Shown here: positions 7,508 to 13,460 of the stretch, piece after piece | Position numbering within the stretch: the first letter of the stretch is position 1 | Layout of the letters: every line of letters begins with the position of its first letter | Assembly (NCBI RefSeq): GCF_025515205.1 | Contig: NZ_JAOPFX010000001.1 | Location: 1,550,001-1,614,000, forward strand | Source of the DNA: Microbacterium fluvii | Lineage (GTDB): Bacteria; Actinomycetota; Actinomycetes; Actinomycetales; Microbacteriaceae | Direction: 5' to 3' | DNA: 64,000 nucleotides | The notes under the pieces: generated by a model | What the model was told of the DNA's origin: nothing | What the model saw: the letters and a program-made list of their open reading frames with translations, nothing else | The model's database searches: none | Position numbers and translations under genes: made by a program

Positions 7508-7530
7508 CACAGGTGTCGCACTCACCTGTG
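7508..7530 (+). promoter_or_regulatory. Inverted repeat upstream of the GT2 gene, possible operator
   Basis: CACAGGTG at 7508-7515 and CACCTGTG at 7523-7530 form a perfect 8-bp inverted repeat with a 7-bp spacer, 31 bp before the GT2 start. The 194-bp divergent rsmA/GT2 interval holds no other gene. The repeat may bind a dimeric regulator of the polysaccharide cassette or fold in the 5' leader; which is not clear. Confidence 0.4.
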
Positions 7531-7561: not shown

Positions 7562-9310
7562 ATGACGATCCCAGCAGAGGCTCGAACCCATCTGACGAGA
7601 TTCGATCGCAACGGGCGCACCGTGCGTGTGAGCGAGACCTCGGCCCTGTTCGTGCTCGTCTCGGTGCTCGCGACGCTCGGGGTCGTCGCCTACGCGCTGT
7701 TCCTGCTCGACCCGAGCCACCGCGGCGACCTGCTCCCCTACGGCCTGGTGATCGTCGCCGAATCGGTGCTCGTCGTGCAGGCGCTGCTGTCGATGTGGAC
7801 GATCCTCTCGTCGGGATACGAGCCGCGCGACTTCCCCTATCACGAGGCCAGGCGCACGCTGATGCCCGCCGCCGATCTCGGCGACGACACGATGCGACTG
7901 GGCGCGGACGATCTGCTCGTCGACGTGTTCGTCACGGTGTACGGCGAAGACATCGACACGGTGCGCCGCACCGTCGCGGCGGCCGTCGCGATGCGCGGCG
8001 CGCACCGCACGTGGGTGCTCGACGACGGCCGATCGGATGCGGTGAGGGCGGCAGCCGAGCAGCTCGGCGCCTGGTACATCCGCAGGCTCAGCCCCAACGG
8101 GGCCAAGGCCGGCAACATCAACCACGCGCTGTCGGTGGCCAAGGGCGAGTACTTCGCCGTGTTCGACGCCGATTTCGTGCCCGATCCGGAGTTCCTCGTC
8201 GAGACCGTGCCGTTCTTCATCGACGGCAACGTCGCGTTCGTGCAGACGCCGCAGGCCTACGGCAACCTGCACACCGTCATCGCCAGGGGCGCGGCGTTCA
8301 TGCAGACGGTATTCTACCGCTTCGTGCAGCGCGGCCGCAATCGGTTCAATGCGGCCTTCTGCGTGGGCACCAACGTGATCTTCCGCCGGGCCGCGATCGA
8401 CGAGATCGGCGGCATGCACACCGACTCGAAGTCGGAAGACGTGTGGACGGCGCTCACCCTGCACGAGCACGGCTGGCGCTCGGTCTACATCGCCGACATC
8501 CTCGCCGTCGGCGAGGCCCCCGAGACGATCGAGGCCTACAGCAAGCAGCAGCTGAGGTGGGCGACCGGCGGCTTCGAGATCCTGCTCACCCACAACCCGC
8601 TGAGCCCCCGGCGGCGCCTGACCGGCGATCAGCGCGTGCAGTACTTCGTCACCGCGACCTTCTACCTCACCGGCATCTGCCCGCTCCTGCTGCTGCTCGT
8701 GCCCCCGCTGGAGATCTACTTCGACCTGCGCCCGATGAACCTCACGATCACCCCGGTGACGTGGCTGCTGTACTACGCGGGGTTCTATGTCCTGCAGATT
8801 GTGCTCGCCTGGTTCGTCGTGGGCTCGTTCCGCTGGGAGACGCTGACGCTTGCCACCGTGTCGTTCCCGATCTACGCGAAGGCGCTGTGGAACGTCGTGT
8901 GCGGACGAGACGTCGGCTGGCACGTCACCGGGTCTGGGTCGACCCGATCGCCGTTCGAGTTCATCGTGCCGCAGGTGCTGTTCTTCGTCTTCCTCGCACT
9001 CACCTCCGTCGTCGCGATCTGGCGCGACGTGCAGAACGGCACACTGACCCTCGCCACCGCGTGGAACGTGACCAACACCGCGATCCTGGGAGCCTTCGTC
9101 GCGACCGCCCTGCGCGAGGGGCGGGCGGTGCGGAGGGCGGCGGCGCCGCCGGCCGCCGCCGCGCCGCCCGCGCCTACGACGATCGTCGCGCGCCCCCTGC
9201 CGCGCATTCCGGCGCCGGTCCCGGCGCTCACCGCGACGCGCCTGATCGACGACGCTCCGCGCTCCCGCGCCGCCGCCCGAGCGGTCGCCGCCGGTGGAGG
9301 TGCGCGATGA
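7562..9310 (+). CDS. Membrane GT2 processive polysaccharide synthase (cellulose/curdlan-synthase-like)
   Basis: A 582-residue integral membrane family-2 glycosyltransferase. Two N-terminal membrane helices (about residues 27-48 and 60-82) precede a cytoplasmic domain. This carries the full processive-synthase signature: VLDDG (Asp near 154-155), FDADF (DxD at 202-204), SED (291-293, equivalent to TED) and QQLRW (QxxRW, 329-333). Four or five more helices follow, then a Pro/Ala-rich tail of about 55 residues. These motifs define enzymes that polymerise UDP-glucose into beta-glucans and pass the chain through their own membrane channel. There is no C-terminal PilZ domain, so direct c-di-GMP control as in BcsA is not indicated. 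ATG 7562 follows a GGGGGGACAGG purine run. The stop overlaps the next start (ATGA), tying it to the fusion-like protein and the GH81 lipoprotein. Beta-1,3-glucan or mixed-linkage glucan is the likeliest product, by inference from the GH81 partner. Confidence 0.88.
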
Positions 9311-10038
9311 CGTGGGCCGGCCGCATCCGCCTCGCCGTGGGGCTTCTCGTCGTGTTCGCCGTCGTCGGCGCGTGCACGCTCGTGTTCACCCAGCGCCAGA
9401 CCAGGGCCGACAGCGTGAGTGCCGCCATGACCGCCGATGCGTTCTCGCTGGGCAGCGTCTATGCGGGCACGGTCGTCGATCAGAACGTCTCGGCGGGCGA
9501 CACCGTGGCGCAGGGCGACACGCTGTTCACGGTGCGCAGCCCGCAGCTCGCCCGTGATCTCGAACAGAAGGCGATCACCGCCGACGACCTCGGCGTGCCG
9601 GTCGACGACGACGGCACCTACGAGGTCGTCGCGAGCGTCGACGGCGTCGTCGCCGAGGTGCTGGCGCCCGCCGGCGACTTCGTGCAGGCCGGAGAGCTGC
9701 TGGCGACGATCGACCAGGCCGGTTCTCTGGCCGTGGCGGCGCAGTTCCAGCTGACCGCCCGCGACTACGGCAGGGTCGAGGCCGGCAGCACGGTGGAGCT
9801 GCTGCTGCCGGACAACCGGCGCATCTCGGGCCGCGTCGCCGAGATCGACGTCGAGACCGACAGCGGCTCGGCCCGCTCCACGATCGTCGTGGAGAGCCCG
9901 GCGCTGGCCGCGCACGCGATCGGCGGCCTCTATCAGCCGGGCACCCCGGTGACAGCGACGCTGCAGCTGCGCGACGACGGCCCCCTGGCGGGCATCACCG
10001 ACGCGTTCGGCGACTTCGTGCGGAAGATCGGCCTATGA
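9307..10038 (+). CDS. HlyD-like membrane-fusion-type protein
   Basis: A 243-residue protein with one N-terminal membrane helix (about residues 7-27) and an extracytoplasmic part. Two half lipoyl-like motifs are visible: GTVVDQNVSAGDTVAQGDTLFTV, and after a very short connector GVVAEVLAPAGDFVQAGELLATI. A beta-barrel region follows (GSTVELLLPDNRRISGRVAEI). Compared with HlyD/AcrA proteins it lacks the long alpha-helical hairpin, which is usual for Gram-positive versions that need not reach an outer membrane. In bacterial beta-glucan systems (for example the bgsA/bgsB pair) a small fusion-like protein accompanies the GT2 synthase and is needed for activity or export; that role is inferred here from position. 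It overlaps both neighbours by ATGA, which implies fixed stoichiometry. Confidence 0.8.
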   Translation: MTWAGRIRLAVGLLVVFAVVGACTLVFTQRQTRADSVSAAMTADAFSLGSVYAGTVVDQNVSAGDTVAQGDTLFTVRSPQLARDLEQKAITADDLGVPVDDDGTYEVVASVDGVVAEVLAPAGDFVQAGELLATIDQAGSLAVAAQFQLTARDYGRVEAGSTVELLLPDNRRISGRVAEIDVETDSGSARSTIVVESPALAAHAIGGLYQPGTPVTATLQLRDDGPLAGITDAFGDFVRKIGL

Positions 10039-12014
10039 GGCGGGCCCTGCGCGCGGCCGGCGCGGCCGGCGCGATCGCGGTGGCGCTCGTGGCGACGGCG
10101 TGCGCCCCGATGCGCGACGCGGGGCCGGCGGCCGGCCCCACGACCGTCGCCTCGCTGCCTGTGCAGCGCGTCGCCGACACGGGGACCGTGCGCGTCGCCG
10201 ACGGCCTCGCTCCGCCGACCAGCCGGTGGTTCTCGGGTCTCGCCTTCGGCGAGGCGCCGCAGCCGGTCTACCCGTACCCGATCGCGTTCGCCGTCACCGG
10301 CGGCGGGTTCGCGATCGACCTGCCCGCCGTCACCGCGACCGCCGACACGATCGCGGCGGGCTTCGCCGGTGGCCTCGAGGTCGACCTGGGCGCGAGCGGA
10401 TTCGAGATCGTCCGCTACGACCCGGTCTCGGTGACGCTGCGCCTGTGGGACGCCGCCGGCGACCTCGGCGACCTCACGATCGCCGAAGGCTCCCCCGTCG
10501 TGGCGTTCACGGCCTCCCGTGCGCTCACCCTCCGCGTGGGGGCGGAACTCTCCCCCGTCGCGGGAGGCTGGACGGCGACCGCCGACGACACCGTCTTCGC
10601 CCTCTCGGCCCCCGGCGCCGCCGTCAGCGGGACGAGCGTCGGGATGGATGCCGGTGGCACGGCCCAGTTCGTCGCGCCCGCTCCGGGGGCCGATCCCGCA
10701 GAGTGGCTCGCGGCGCTCGCCGCACCTGTCGCCGCCGTCGATGTCACATGGTCGACGGGCCCCACCGAAGTCCGCACACGCCTGACCTACCAGGGCACCT
10801 CGTCGACCGTGCTGGTGTCCTTTCCCGGCCACGACGACGCCGGCGGGCCCGACTGCGGCCTCGGCACGTACGACACCGCCTACGGCCGGGCCACGGCCTG
10901 TGCGGGCACCGAGCTGACCTGGTCGACGGCGGCGCTCACCCCCACCGATTCGTACGACCTCTCCGGACTCCCCACGGCCGATCGCCGTCAGCTGGTCGAC
11001 CAGGTGGCGGCCGATCTCGACGCCACGGCGCCGGCACCCGGCGACATCTATTACGGCGGCAAGGCGCTCTCGCGACTGGGCGCCCTGCTCTCGATCGCGC
11101 GGGGCCTCGGCGACGAGGCGCTCGCCGAACGGACCGCCGACAGACTCGAGACGGAGCTCGACCCGTGGGTCGACGCAGCGGCCTGCTCGGCGGCGAGCGC
11201 ACGCTGCTTCGTCTACGACGACGCGCTGCACCTGGTCGTCGGGCGCACACCGTCGTTCGGCTCGGAGCAGGGCAACGACCATCACTTCCACTACGGCTAC
11301 TTCTTCAGCGCGGCCGCGGCCCTCGTGGAGTACCGACCCGACGCGGCAGAGCACCTCGCCCCCGTGATCGATGCGCTCGCCGCCGACGTCGCGACGGGCT
11401 CGGTCGATCCCGAGATCCCGGCGCTGCGCGTCTTCGACCCCTACCGCGGACACTCGTGGGCGTCCGGACAGGCGCCCTTCGCCGACGGCAACAATCAGGA
11501 GTCCAGCTCCGAGGCGGTCGCCGCGTGGAACGGTCTGGCGCTGTGGGCAACGGCGACCGGCGACGACGATCTCGCGGCGCGGGCGACGTGGATGCTGTCT
11601 GTCGAAGCCGCGGCCGCGCTGAGCCTGTGGCTCGCCCCCGCCGAGCTTCCCTCCCCCTACGCCCACCAGATCGTCTCGCTCAGCTGGAGCGCCAAGCGCG
11701 ACTACGCGACGTGGTTCAGCGCGGAGCCCTCGGCGATCCTCGGCATCCAGCTGCTGCCGCTCGGGCCGATCGCCCTGCAGTACCTGGGCGGCGACTCCGA
11801 GCAGGTGGCGCGCGCCGTCGACGAGGCGGGCGGTGCGGCGGCGTTCCCCCGCGCGCTCGGCGACTATGTGCTGATGTATTCGGCGCTCGGCGGTGACGAA
11901 GCGGCCGCCGCGGCCGCCGCGGCTCTCGACGCACTGCCCGACACCGCGATCGACGACGGCAACTCGCGGTCGGCGATGCTGGCGTGGCTCGCGGGGGTCA
12001 GCAGCCGTCACTAG
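10035..12014 (+). CDS. GH81 endo-beta-1,3-glucanase lipoprotein
   Basis: A 659-residue glycoside hydrolase family 81 protein; this family cleaves beta-1,3-glucan with inversion of configuration. A lipoprotein signal is visible: Arg residues, a hydrophobic stretch and a VATAC lipobox with Cys at 23. The enzyme should thus be anchored on the outer face of the membrane. The GH81 core is recognisable by NDHHFHYGYFF (Asp 415, probable acid), GHSWASG, and DGNNQESSSEAVAAW (Glu 489 and Glu 493, probable base). An N-terminal beta-sandwich domain covers roughly residues 50-300. It is coupled by ATGA to the fusion-like protein and so to the GT2 synthase. This is the layout expected for an editing or release hydrolase of a glucan-producing machine; a separate role in feeding on fungal glucan is the main alternative. 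Confidence 0.85.
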   Translation: MRRALRAAGAAGAIAVALVATACAPMRDAGPAAGPTTVASLPVQRVADTGTVRVADGLAPPTSRWFSGLAFGEAPQPVYPYPIAFAVTGGGFAIDLPAVTATADTIAAGFAGGLEVDLGASGFEIVRYDPVSVTLRLWDAAGDLGDLTIAEGSPVVAFTASRALTLRVGAELSPVAGGWTATADDTVFALSAPGAAVSGTSVGMDAGGTAQFVAPAPGADPAEWLAALAAPVAAVDVTWSTGPTEVRTRLTYQGTSSTVLVSFPGHDDAGGPDCGLGTYDTAYGRATACAGTELTWSTAALTPTDSYDLSGLPTADRRQLVDQVAADLDATAPAPGDIYYGGKALSRLGALLSIARGLGDEALAERTADRLETELDPWVDAAACSAASARCFVYDDALHLVVGRTPSFGSEQGNDHHFHYGYFFSAAAALVEYRPDAAEHLAPVIDALAADVATGSVDPEIPALRVFDPYRGHSWASGQAPFADGNNQESSSEAVAAWNGLALWATATGDDDLAARATWMLSVEAAAALSLWLAPAELPSPYAHQIVSLSWSAKRDYATWFSAEPSAILGIQLLPLGPIALQYLGGDSEQVARAVDEAGGAAAFPRALGDYVLMYSALGGDEAAAAAAAALDALPDTAIDDGNSRSAMLAWLAGVSSRH

Positions 12015-12023: not shown

Positions 12024-13460
12024 ATGAGCGACTCCGGCACGATCCCCTCCGACGCCTTCTCGCTGCGCAGCCCCTACGGCCGCCGTGCGATCGCGCTGTC
12101 GATCGCGGCCGCCGTGGGCGGATTCCTCTTCGGCTTCGACTCGTCGGTCATCAACGGCGCCGTCGACTCGATCCAGCAGGATTTCGGCCTCAACGACGTC
12201 GTCACGGGGTTCGTCGTCGCCGTCGCGCTGCTGGGCTGCGCCGTCGGCGCCGTGCTCGCCGGCAACCTCAGCGATCGGTGGGGGCGGCTGAAGGTCATGC
12301 TGCTGGGCGCCGTGATGTTCTTCGCCAGTTCGATCGGGGCCGCGTTCGCGTTCTCGGTGTGGGACCTCGGGCTCTGGCGCGTGATCGGGGGCCTGGGCAT
12401 CGGCATCGCCTCGGTCGTGGCGCCCGCCTACATCGCCGAGGTCGCCCCTCGCCAGATCCGCGGCGGGCTCGCCTCGCTGCAGCAGCTGGCGATCACCCTC
12501 GGCATCTTCACGGCGCTGCTGAGCGACGCCCTGCTGGCGGGCACTGCGGGCGGCGCCGACGAGGTGCTGTGGTTCGGCATGGAGGCGTGGCGGTGGATGT
12601 TCCTCGTCGGCACGATCCCGGCGGCGGTCTACGGCATCCTCTCGTTCACGGTTCCGGAGTCGCCGCGCTTCCTCATCGCGCAGGGGCGGTCGGACCAGGC
12701 CCGCGCGATCTTCGAGCGCCTCGTGCCGCCCGCCGATCTCGAGCACACGATGCGCGACCTGCAGACCGCGATCGAGGCCGACCGGCGCAACGCCGGCGTC
12801 TCGCTGCGCGGGCCGGTGTTCGGGCTGCAGCGCATCGTCTGGATCGGCATCATCCTGTCGGTGTTCCAGCAGTTCGTCGGCATCAACGTGATCTTCTACT
12901 ACTCGACGAGCCTGTGGGCCTCGGTCGGGTTCGACGAGAGCGATTCGTTCACGATCAGCGTCGCGACGGCCGTGACGAACGTGCTCGTCACCCTCGTGGC
13001 GATCTTCCTCGTCGACCGCATCGGGCGAAAGCCGATCCTGCTCACCGGATCGGTGCTGATGGCGGTGTCGCTCGCGACGATGGCGGTGGCCTTCGTCTTC
13101 GCCGAGGGCACGGGAGACGACGTGTCGCTCCCCGGAGCGTGGGGGCCGATCGCCCTCGTCGCCGCGAACGTGTTCGTGGTCGGGTTCGGTGCGTCGTGGG
13201 GCCCGCTCGTGTGGGTGCTGCTCGGCGAGATCTTCCCGAGCCGCATCCGCGGAAAGGCGCTGGGCGTGGCGGCGGGCGCCCAGTGGATCGCGAACTTCCT
13301 CGTGACGGTCACCTTCCCCGCCATGAGCGGCTGGTCGCTGCCGGCGACCTACGGCATGTACGCGGTGTTCGCGGCTCTCTCGTTCGTCTACGTCGCCTGG
13401 CGCATCCCCGAGACCAAGGGCATGGAGCTGGAGCAGACCGAGACGCTGTTCACGAGGTGA
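12024..13460 (+). CDS. MFS sugar porter (XylE/GalP-type sugar:H+ symporter)
   Basis: A 478-residue, 12-helix transporter with the complete sugar-porter signature set: GGFLFGFDSSVINGAV in helix 1, DRWGRLKVML between helices 2 and 3, PESPRFLIAQGR before the central loop, QQFVGINVIFYYS in helix 7, DRIGRKPILL between helices 8 and 9, and PETKGMELEQ at the end. The family takes up hexoses or pentoses with protons. The QQFVGIN motif is the sugar-binding part of helix 7, but the substrate cannot be fixed from sequence. The gene starts 9 bp after the GH81 stop, so it could import glucose released by that enzyme. Its stop overlaps the next transporter as GTGA. Confidence 0.92.
   Translation: MSDSGTIPSDAFSLRSPYGRRAIALSIAAAVGGFLFGFDSSVINGAVDSIQQDFGLNDVVTGFVVAVALLGCAVGAVLAGNLSDRWGRLKVMLLGAVMFFASSIGAAFAFSVWDLGLWRVIGGLGIGIASVVAPAYIAEVAPRQIRGGLASLQQLAITLGIFTALLSDALLAGTAGGADEVLWFGMEAWRWMFLVGTIPAAVYGILSFTVPESPRFLIAQGRSDQARAIFERLVPPADLEHTMRDLQTAIEADRRNAGVSLRGPVFGLQRIVWIGIILSVFQQFVGINVIFYYSTSLWASVGFDESDSFTISVATAVTNVLVTLVAIFLVDRIGRKPILLTGSVLMAVSLATMAVAFVFAEGTGDDVSLPGAWGPIALVAANVFVVGFGASWGPLVWVLLGEIFPSRIRGKALGVAAGAQWIANFLVTVTFPAMSGWSLPATYGMYAVFAALSFVYVAWRIPETKGMELEQTETLFTR

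Follow-up and report, generated by a model that had tools for sequence, protein, structure and literature searches.

A probable curdlan-type β-1,3-glucan synthase operon with a built-in membrane-anchored GH81 endo-β-1,3-glucanase in Micrococcales

We analyzed a stretch of 64,000 nucleotides from Microbacterium fluvii (NCBI RefSeq assembly GCF_025515205.1, contig NZ_JAOPFX010000001.1, positions 1,550,001 to 1,614,000 of the forward strand; the whole stretch is referred to as the window), in which three overlapping genes encode a GT2 processive synthase, a short HlyD-like protein, and a GH81 predicted lipoprotein. The three genes are conserved as one unit, which makes them a predicted operon. 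Judged from the sequences, they probably constitute an independently evolved curdlan-type β-1,3-glucan synthase operon with a built-in membrane-anchored GH81 endo-β-1,3-glucanase. The likely product is a linear exopolysaccharide. GH81 enzymes are endo-β-1,3-glucanases, and a GH81 gene follows the synthase gene wherever the surroundings are visible; therefore, the polymer most likely has runs of β-1,3-linked glucose. The three genes, in positions of the window, are as follows.

7562..9310, + strand: GT2 processive synthase, 582 aa (ATG at 7562, stop at 9308-9310), with DDG, DAD, SED, and QQLRW motifs; assigned by Pfam, motifs, and model
9307..10038, + strand: HlyD-like partner with the membrane-fusion-protein fold, 243 aa (ATG at 9307, stop at 10036-10038); assigned by Pfam and model
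10035..12014, + strand: GH81 predicted lipoprotein, 659 aa (ATG at 10035, stop at 12012-12014), with D415, E489, and E493 and a lipobox Cys23

The preliminary description of this DNA reported genes of these three kinds joined by two ATGA overlaps. The open reading frames (ORFs) lie where it placed them, and Pfam agrees with their assignment. ATGA is found at both junctions, with the HlyD-like start inside the GT2 stop and the GH81 start inside the HlyD-like stop.

Conservation of the three genes

When named genomes were scanned with a 14-row alignment, 331 candidates were confirmed, and the best 80 of these, all with at least 62% identity, were retained. The order GT2-HlyD-GH81 was present in 78 of these best 80 named loci, and the two without the full triplet (L064 and L086) both stop at a contig edge. 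The triplet is thus conserved in other genomes, and its non-conservation, which the preliminary description named as a refuting result, did not occur. The in-register (-1) overlap of the GT2 and HlyD genes recurred at 75 of 78 loci and suggests that their translation is coupled. The 80 loci represent 16 named genera, and 77 of them belong to Micrococcales; the others carry the labels of a Friedmanniella metagenome-assembled genome (MAG), an Acidobacteria MAG, and a misspelt Cellulomonas name. The contig labelled as the Acidobacteria MAG (L093) carries all three genes, with a GT2 that falls within the actinobacterial clade, so that either mis-binning or transfer is indicated. At four Demequina loci (L041, L060, L063, and L083), a tandem of two GT2-HlyD pairs is accompanied by a single visible GH81; perhaps two synthases share one hydrolase in these strains.

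The distribution was also determined in samples of the genus, the order, and the phylum and in the Cellulomonas group. Among 198 genomes of the window's genus, a full-length GH81 was found in 10, and the GT2 was adjacent in all 10. Two other GH81 matches occurred in the genus: G048 has a second GH81 that is not linked to the GT2, and G036 has a weak match of 43 residues. The GT2 was found in 11 of the 198 genomes, namely the 10 with GH81 and G138, which has only an N-terminal GT2 piece (L183). The GT2 of G085 (L022/L025) is broken into two frames, and that of G037 (L182) is without its middle part and is accompanied by a shortened HlyD match; a GH81 match still adjoins in both genomes. The broken or partial GT2 genes in G037, G085, and G138 may be assembly errors.

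In regards to the Cellulomonas group, 51 of the 81 genomes had the GT2, and 50 of these 51 had a same-strand GH81 no more than 4.5 kb downstream of it; the exception, G237, is at a contig end. GH81 occurred anywhere in the genome in all 51 genomes with the GT2 and in 4 of the 30 others (Fisher p 2.4e-17, with relatedness ignored). A second GH81 directly follows the first in nine genomes of the group (G199, G216, G226, G227, G243, G244, G245, G276, and G281). In a sample of 297 genomes of the order, GH81 was found in 45; the GT2, counted within these 45 genomes only, was present in 36 and adjacent in 36 of 36, and 4 of its 41 copies were extra ones with no GH81 directly after them. In a sample of 396 genomes of the phylum, a close GT2 was found in the window's own genome alone, and the 18 further matches at E 1e-60 were distant. 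GH81 follows the GT2 at every locus where the contig permits a view, extra tandem GT2 copies aside, and the hydrolase gene is conserved within the synthase operon.

The GT2 synthase

The synthase matched the Pfam families PF13641, PF13632, PF00535, and PF03552. The residues D154-D155-G156, D202-A-D204, S291-E292-D293, and Q329-Q-L-R332-W333 were invariant across the 14-row alignment, which includes the window, and no PilZ domain of the kind located at the C-terminus of BcsA was matched by Pfam. Both observations confirm the preliminary description, which credited the GT2 with all the motifs of processive polymerases and noted the absence of PilZ. The top curated family was CelA (TIGR03030) with 231.7 bits, about a third of the cut-off of 699.1 bits for that family, and the NodC profile scored far lower (31.9 bits). 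The 14 PDB sequence matches were to BcsA, plant CesA, and a mannosyltransferase, and no chitin or hyaluronan synthase was among them. When the AlphaFold model (mean predicted local distance difference test score (pLDDT), 77) was ranked by fold, BcsA was the best match, followed by plant CesA and CslF6, and the hyaluronan and chitin synthases ranked lower. The model has long helices before and after the catalytic domain, which presumably span the membrane, and an Ala/Pro-rich C-terminal tail of low confidence. Profile, PDB sequence, and fold matches all place the GT2 outside the chitin- and hyaluronan-type enzymes, in keeping with its earlier assignment to β-glucan synthesis, and indicate that it is a cellulose-synthase-like processive GT2.

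The operon GT2 family, with 28 rows in a 53-row tree, formed one clade there (support, 100/99) apart from BcsA and the rhizobial GT2s. PgaC and L173 had very long branches in this tree, and the short rows L162, L165, and L170 were dropped before it was built. The sisters of the family among the rows used were other actinobacterial GT2s (98/97). No HlyD or GH81 domain was found in the few neighbours scanned beside three of these, which are among the nearest GT2s of the phylum outside the family (L156, L157/L179, and L158/L181). The clade tests were conducted with a 26-row tree, without PgaC, L173, L162, L165, L170, and most relatives, and they named groups already seen in the 53-row tree. A forced clade with the six rhizobial CrdS/BgsA-type rows was 29.5 log-likelihood units worse (p value of the approximately unbiased test (p-AU), 0.00403), and a forced clade with the two BcsA rows was 30.2 units worse (p-AU 0.00261). 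Membership of the operon GT2 in the rhizobial CrdS/BgsA-type clade (p-AU 0.004) and in the BcsA clade (p-AU 0.003) is rejected, and by these comparisons of sequence the operon GT2 is a lineage of its own.

L148 served as a crdASC-type stand-in in the trees and comparisons and is not characterised CrdS itself. It is a crdASC-type locus on the Agrobacterium tumefaciens plasmid pAtFPH-AT4a (2098-7032) that encodes an HlyD-family protein of 484 aa, a GT2 of 655 aa, and a hypothetical protein of 426 aa. Compared with the published start of crdA, L148 has 2 mismatches in 17, exactly at the start codon, and the start primer has 2 mismatches in 18; the first gene has 1455 bases against the published 1458. 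The crdC primer sites are 248 bases apart, as published, but have 6 and 4 mismatches, and one of these primers has a better site elsewhere in the locus (5 mismatches). No convincing site for the crdA and crdS quantitative PCR primers was found in L148, and its third gene did not match the HlyD profile. A Rhizobium leguminosarum gene annotated as "Curdlan synthase" (L113, CP007068.1, 3791-5644) was rejected as a CrdS reference: it grouped with the Sinorhizobium meliloti BgsA-type row (100/100), and this annotation therefore misleads searches for CrdS. The L113 product is 79% identical to an S. meliloti glycosyltransferase, and a hemolysin D gene is located just upstream.

The HlyD-like partner

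The second protein matched Pfam PF13437 (HlyD_3), and its model (pLDDT 87.8) contained the barrel-sandwich and β-barrel domains of the family. The model has one N-terminal helix (residues 3-31), which is presumably transmembrane, and a C-terminal helix (228-240). No coiled-coil hairpin was present in the model, and just short helices (79-86 and 92-95) occupied its place. The Foldseek matches of the model include ZneB, MexA, EmrA, and MacA. The similarity to the rhizobial HlyD partners was weak: five gave E values between about 3e-7 and 5e-10, and the L148 partner gave no significant match.

The GH81 enzyme

The third protein matched PF17652 (Glyco_hydro81C) with 171.4 bits against a gathering cut-off of 25.6. 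D415 was conserved in 78 of 78 relatives, and E489 and E493 were each conserved in 76 of 76, because two of the 78 rows end before E489. We take these three to be the catalytic residues. The place of E489 is occupied by Q in the solved GH81 entry 5upi and by A in 6fop, which are presumably deliberate catalytic mutants. GH81 enzymes require runs of β-1,3 links in their substrates.

A lipobox-like VATA-C23 was read from the sequence at the N-terminus. Among the operon GH81 proteins, a lipobox was detected at 62 of the 76 loci with a start found. The check looked at the first 45 residues, and this count depends on the start codon picked, which was the one nearest the previous stop; this choice favours overlaps (44 of 78 read -1). 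Among the rows scored negative, L051 and L074 have a lipobox at the very start, where a late start codon was picked, and L102 has a long N-terminus that extends beyond the 45 residues. The Cellulomonas rows L077 and L105 have a hydrophobic N-terminus and no lipobox.

Cellulomonas and curdlan

On the sequence evidence, a β-1,3-glucan product gains weight from Cellulomonas. Curdlan is reported to be abundant in C. flavigena and to occur in a small amount in C. fimi (PMC3544764); the curdlan of C. flavigena is also described in PMC3035266, and reports of Cellulomonas curdlan date from at least 1990 (patent cited in PMC3544764). The genomes that we took as C. flavigena, C. fimi, and C. gilvus each contained one GT2 of the operon family, and each of these GT2 genes was in a triplet. 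Two GT2s per genome, with 35-39% identity to Agrobacterium CrdS, were reported for three sequenced cellulomonads (PMC3544764), and the loci found here are probably the first-listed candidates of that paper (Cfla_3154, Celf_3456, and Celgi_1506), as judged from position. The parts covered of the two Cellulomonas genome papers (PMC3544764 and PMC3035266) give GT2 candidates or counts and contain no operon, partner, or recycling enzyme; the re-use of curdlan by C. flavigena is called unclear (PMC3544764). The C. flavigena GT2 shared 38% identity both with the crdASC-type GT2 of L148 (over 281 residues) and with the BgsA-type GT2 (over 284 residues). Identity alone therefore does not choose between curdlan and a mixed-linkage glucan.

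The predicted product and its alternatives

The preliminary description proposed a surface polymer with β-1,3 links that is trimmed or released by its own lipoprotein. The conservation of the triplet, the Cellulomonas context, and the retained GH81 residues speak for this proposal, in which the product is a prediction. By analogy with BcsZ and CcsZ, which are hydrolases encoded in their own synthase operons, the GH81 after the GT2 would favour a curdlan-type glucan with a tethered endo-glucanase.

Several observations weigh against a curdlan-type product. The second CrdS-like GT2 in each cellulomonad genome could be the curdlan synthase, and C. fimi has the operon yet is reported to make little curdlan (PMC3544764). 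For C. gelida, an absence of curdlan is reported (PMC3035266), which would weigh in if this species carries the operon. The GT2 is outside the CrdS/BgsA-type clade, and curdlan is therefore not readable by orthology. The occurrence of the GT2 in 11 of 198 genomes of the window's genus, with 3 of the 11 broken or partial, indicates that the trait is dispensable there. Furthermore, 58 of the 109 GH81 domains in the Cellulomonas group (51 being linked to the GT2) and 21 of the 58 in the order sample (37 being linked) are unlinked, which indicates that GH81 also does other work in these bacteria.

Three other products or roles were considered. The operon may make a mixed-linkage (1,3;1,4)-β-glucan like BgsA or the Clostridial RiGT2, in which case GH81 would trim only β-1,3 stretches; we regard this as unlikely. 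An HlyD-like protein is likewise encoded beside the S. meliloti BgsA-type GT2, which is 36% identical over 286 residues, but the operon GT2 is outside the BgsA-type clade, and strictly alternating or 1,4-rich glucans are without the β-1,3 runs that GH81 needs. Gram-positive mixed-linkage synthases do exist (PMC10374906), although RiGT2 has a PilZ domain (PMC10374906) and the operon GT2 has none.

It is improbable that the GH81 mainly attacks foreign β-1,3-glucan of fungal or plant walls while the GT2-HlyD pair makes another, adhesive polymer during feeding. The unlinked majority of the Cellulomonas-group GH81 domains (58 of 109) and the 9 of 45 GH81 genomes of the order sample that are without the GT2 are consistent with such a role. 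However, the operon GH81 gene overlaps or closely follows the HlyD gene, its product has a lipobox in 62 of 76 loci, and it comes after the GT2 wherever the contig permits a view.

That the operon makes cellulose, with GH81 as a bystander or a nutrient-scavenging β-1,3-glucanase placed by chance, is quite improbable: CelA/BcsA was the top-scoring curated family and one source gives several relatives the name "cellulose synthase (UDP-forming)", but the score of 232 bits falls far short of the CelA cut-off (699 bits), PilZ is absent, grouping with BcsA was rejected (p-AU 0.003), and 78 of 80 loci in 16 named genera retain GH81 beside the GT2, a pattern that chance would not produce.

Comparison with known systems

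An HlyD-family partner adjoining the GT2 is a feature of CrdS/BgsA-type systems that was found in the actinobacterial operon and likewise in the rhizobial loci. The Agrobacterium crdASC system (CrdA, CrdS, and CrdC), whose known product is β-1,3-glucan, has a processive GT2 beside an HlyD-family membrane protein, as seen in L148. In contrast to the actinobacterial operon, where the GT2 gene is first, the HlyD gene is first in crd; the HlyD protein has 484 aa in L148 and 243 aa here, the third gene is CrdC-like in crd and GH81 here, and the GT2 clades are separate (p-AU 0.004). The S. meliloti pSymB locus L114, which we take to be bgsBA, likewise has a GT2 and HlyD-like pair with overlapping genes. 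It differs in its HlyD-like protein of 410 aa, its GT2 clade, and the (1,3;1,4) product of bgsA/bgsB, and no hydrolase gene was among the seven features shown at L114.

The bcsABZC cluster of Escherichia coli also combines a synthase, a membrane or periplasmic partner, and an endoglucanase, and BcsA was the best structural match of the GT2. The actinobacterial operon differs in that it has no PilZ domain, an HlyD-like protein instead of BcsB, and no outer-membrane pore gene, and its hydrolase belongs to a β-1,3 family, whereas that of bcs belongs to a β-1,4 family. The Clostridial ccsZABHI operon likewise encodes a glycoside hydrolase, CcsZ, together with a GT2 in a Gram-positive (PMC7710045). 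Unlike the operon described here, it has GH5 rather than GH81, a CcsA with PilZ, a CcsB that is CBM11-like and not HlyD, and acetylation genes (PMC7710045). The Cellulomonas curdlan-synthase candidates (Cfla_3154 and others) are probably the same genes as the operon-family GT2s, but the part covered of PMC3544764 gives them no operon, HlyD, or GH81 link.

The preliminary description held that a GH81 in a synthase operon was undescribed. No published description of a GH81 within a GT2 synthase operon was found in the titles and abstracts of a mainly non-subscription literature on GH81, curdlan and mixed-linkage synthases, Cellulomonas, and Actinobacteria, and the main text of a survey of exopolysaccharide operons makes no mention of curdlan, GH81, or HlyD (PMC7112194). 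This part of the claim stands, but a synthase operon with its own glycanase is established (BcsZ; CcsZ, PMC7710045). The novelty lies in the hydrolase family, GH81, in the short HlyD partner, and in the actinobacterial lineage of the operon, whereas the carriage of a glycanase by a synthase operon is known.

Flanking elements

Two further elements adjoin the three genes in the window.

7508..7530, no strand: inverted repeat CACAGGTG-7-CACCTGTG upstream of the GT2, with perfect 8-bp arms and a 7-bp loop; strain-specific
12024..13460, + strand: sugar porter family transporter of the major facilitator superfamily, just downstream of GH81; probably a neighbour and not a member

The inverted repeat was the single such site in the whole 3.33-Mb genome, and of 177 loci none contained it except the two that come from the genome of the window. 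A conserved operator is ruled out by this uniqueness to the strain, and the earlier suggestion that the repeat controls the cassette is not supported for the same reason; it may be a strain-specific operator or hairpin. The sugar porter gene, described earlier as following the triplet directly, is real, but a relative adjoins the triplet in 1 of the 80 named loci (some of which end soon after GH81), and on this rare linkage it was rejected as a member of the cassette. Because the repeat is unique to the strain and the porter is rarely linked, neither looks like a part of the system. No β-glucan gene was found near the triplet among the 7 ORFs flanking the C. flavigena locus and the 2 flanking a Demequina locus, and one of the latter two has an alpha-amylase domain.

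The rsmA gene adjoins the operon in 10 of 11 Microbacterium-like named loci; therefore, one chromosomal site is mostly used in this genus. Within the genus, where 11 of 198 genomes are carriers, the operon has probably been lost repeatedly or been moved by exchange between its flanks.

Proposed function and implications

We propose that the GT2 would polymerise UDP-glucose on the cytosolic side of the membrane and, like BcsA, extrude the growing chain through a channel of its own. The HlyD-like protein, with its one-helix anchor and without a hairpin that reaches an outer-membrane pore, may cap the channel exit of the GT2 and direct the polymer into the wall of the Gram-positive cell, in the place held by BgsB and by the HlyD-family product of the first crd gene. 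The GH81 at the outer leaflet would cleave the emerging or stored glucan, and this cleavage could either set the length of the glucan and release it or turn the coat into usable oligosaccharides when carbon is short.

One source (jgi) names several GT2 relatives "cellulose synthase (UDP-forming)" and several HlyD partners "multidrug resistance efflux pump", and as a result of this misnaming the operon is hidden in the databases. A broader proposal, which we offer tentatively, is that Micrococcales may have evolved β-1,3-glucan synthesis independently of Agrobacterium CrdS, as a compact machine that both makes and cuts the polymer, with a GT2 that lacks PilZ, an HlyD cap that lacks the hairpin, and a tethered GH81, and with a curdlan coat that serves as a retrievable extracellular carbon store. 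The curdlan operon so far missing from Gram-positive bacteria, C. flavigena included, could then be this one, concealed under the names of a cellulose synthase and a multidrug efflux pump.

If this proposal is true, the names "cellulose synthase" and "multidrug efflux pump" that one source gives to a number of the genes would need correction, and the long-known Cellulomonas curdlan would have a gene set. There would also be two separate bacterial lineages of a commercially used β-1,3-glucan synthase, the second of which has no outer membrane to cross and no PilZ. If the GH81 recycles curdlan, the operon would furthermore answer the question of curdlan re-use raised in the Cellulomonas genome paper (PMC3544764).

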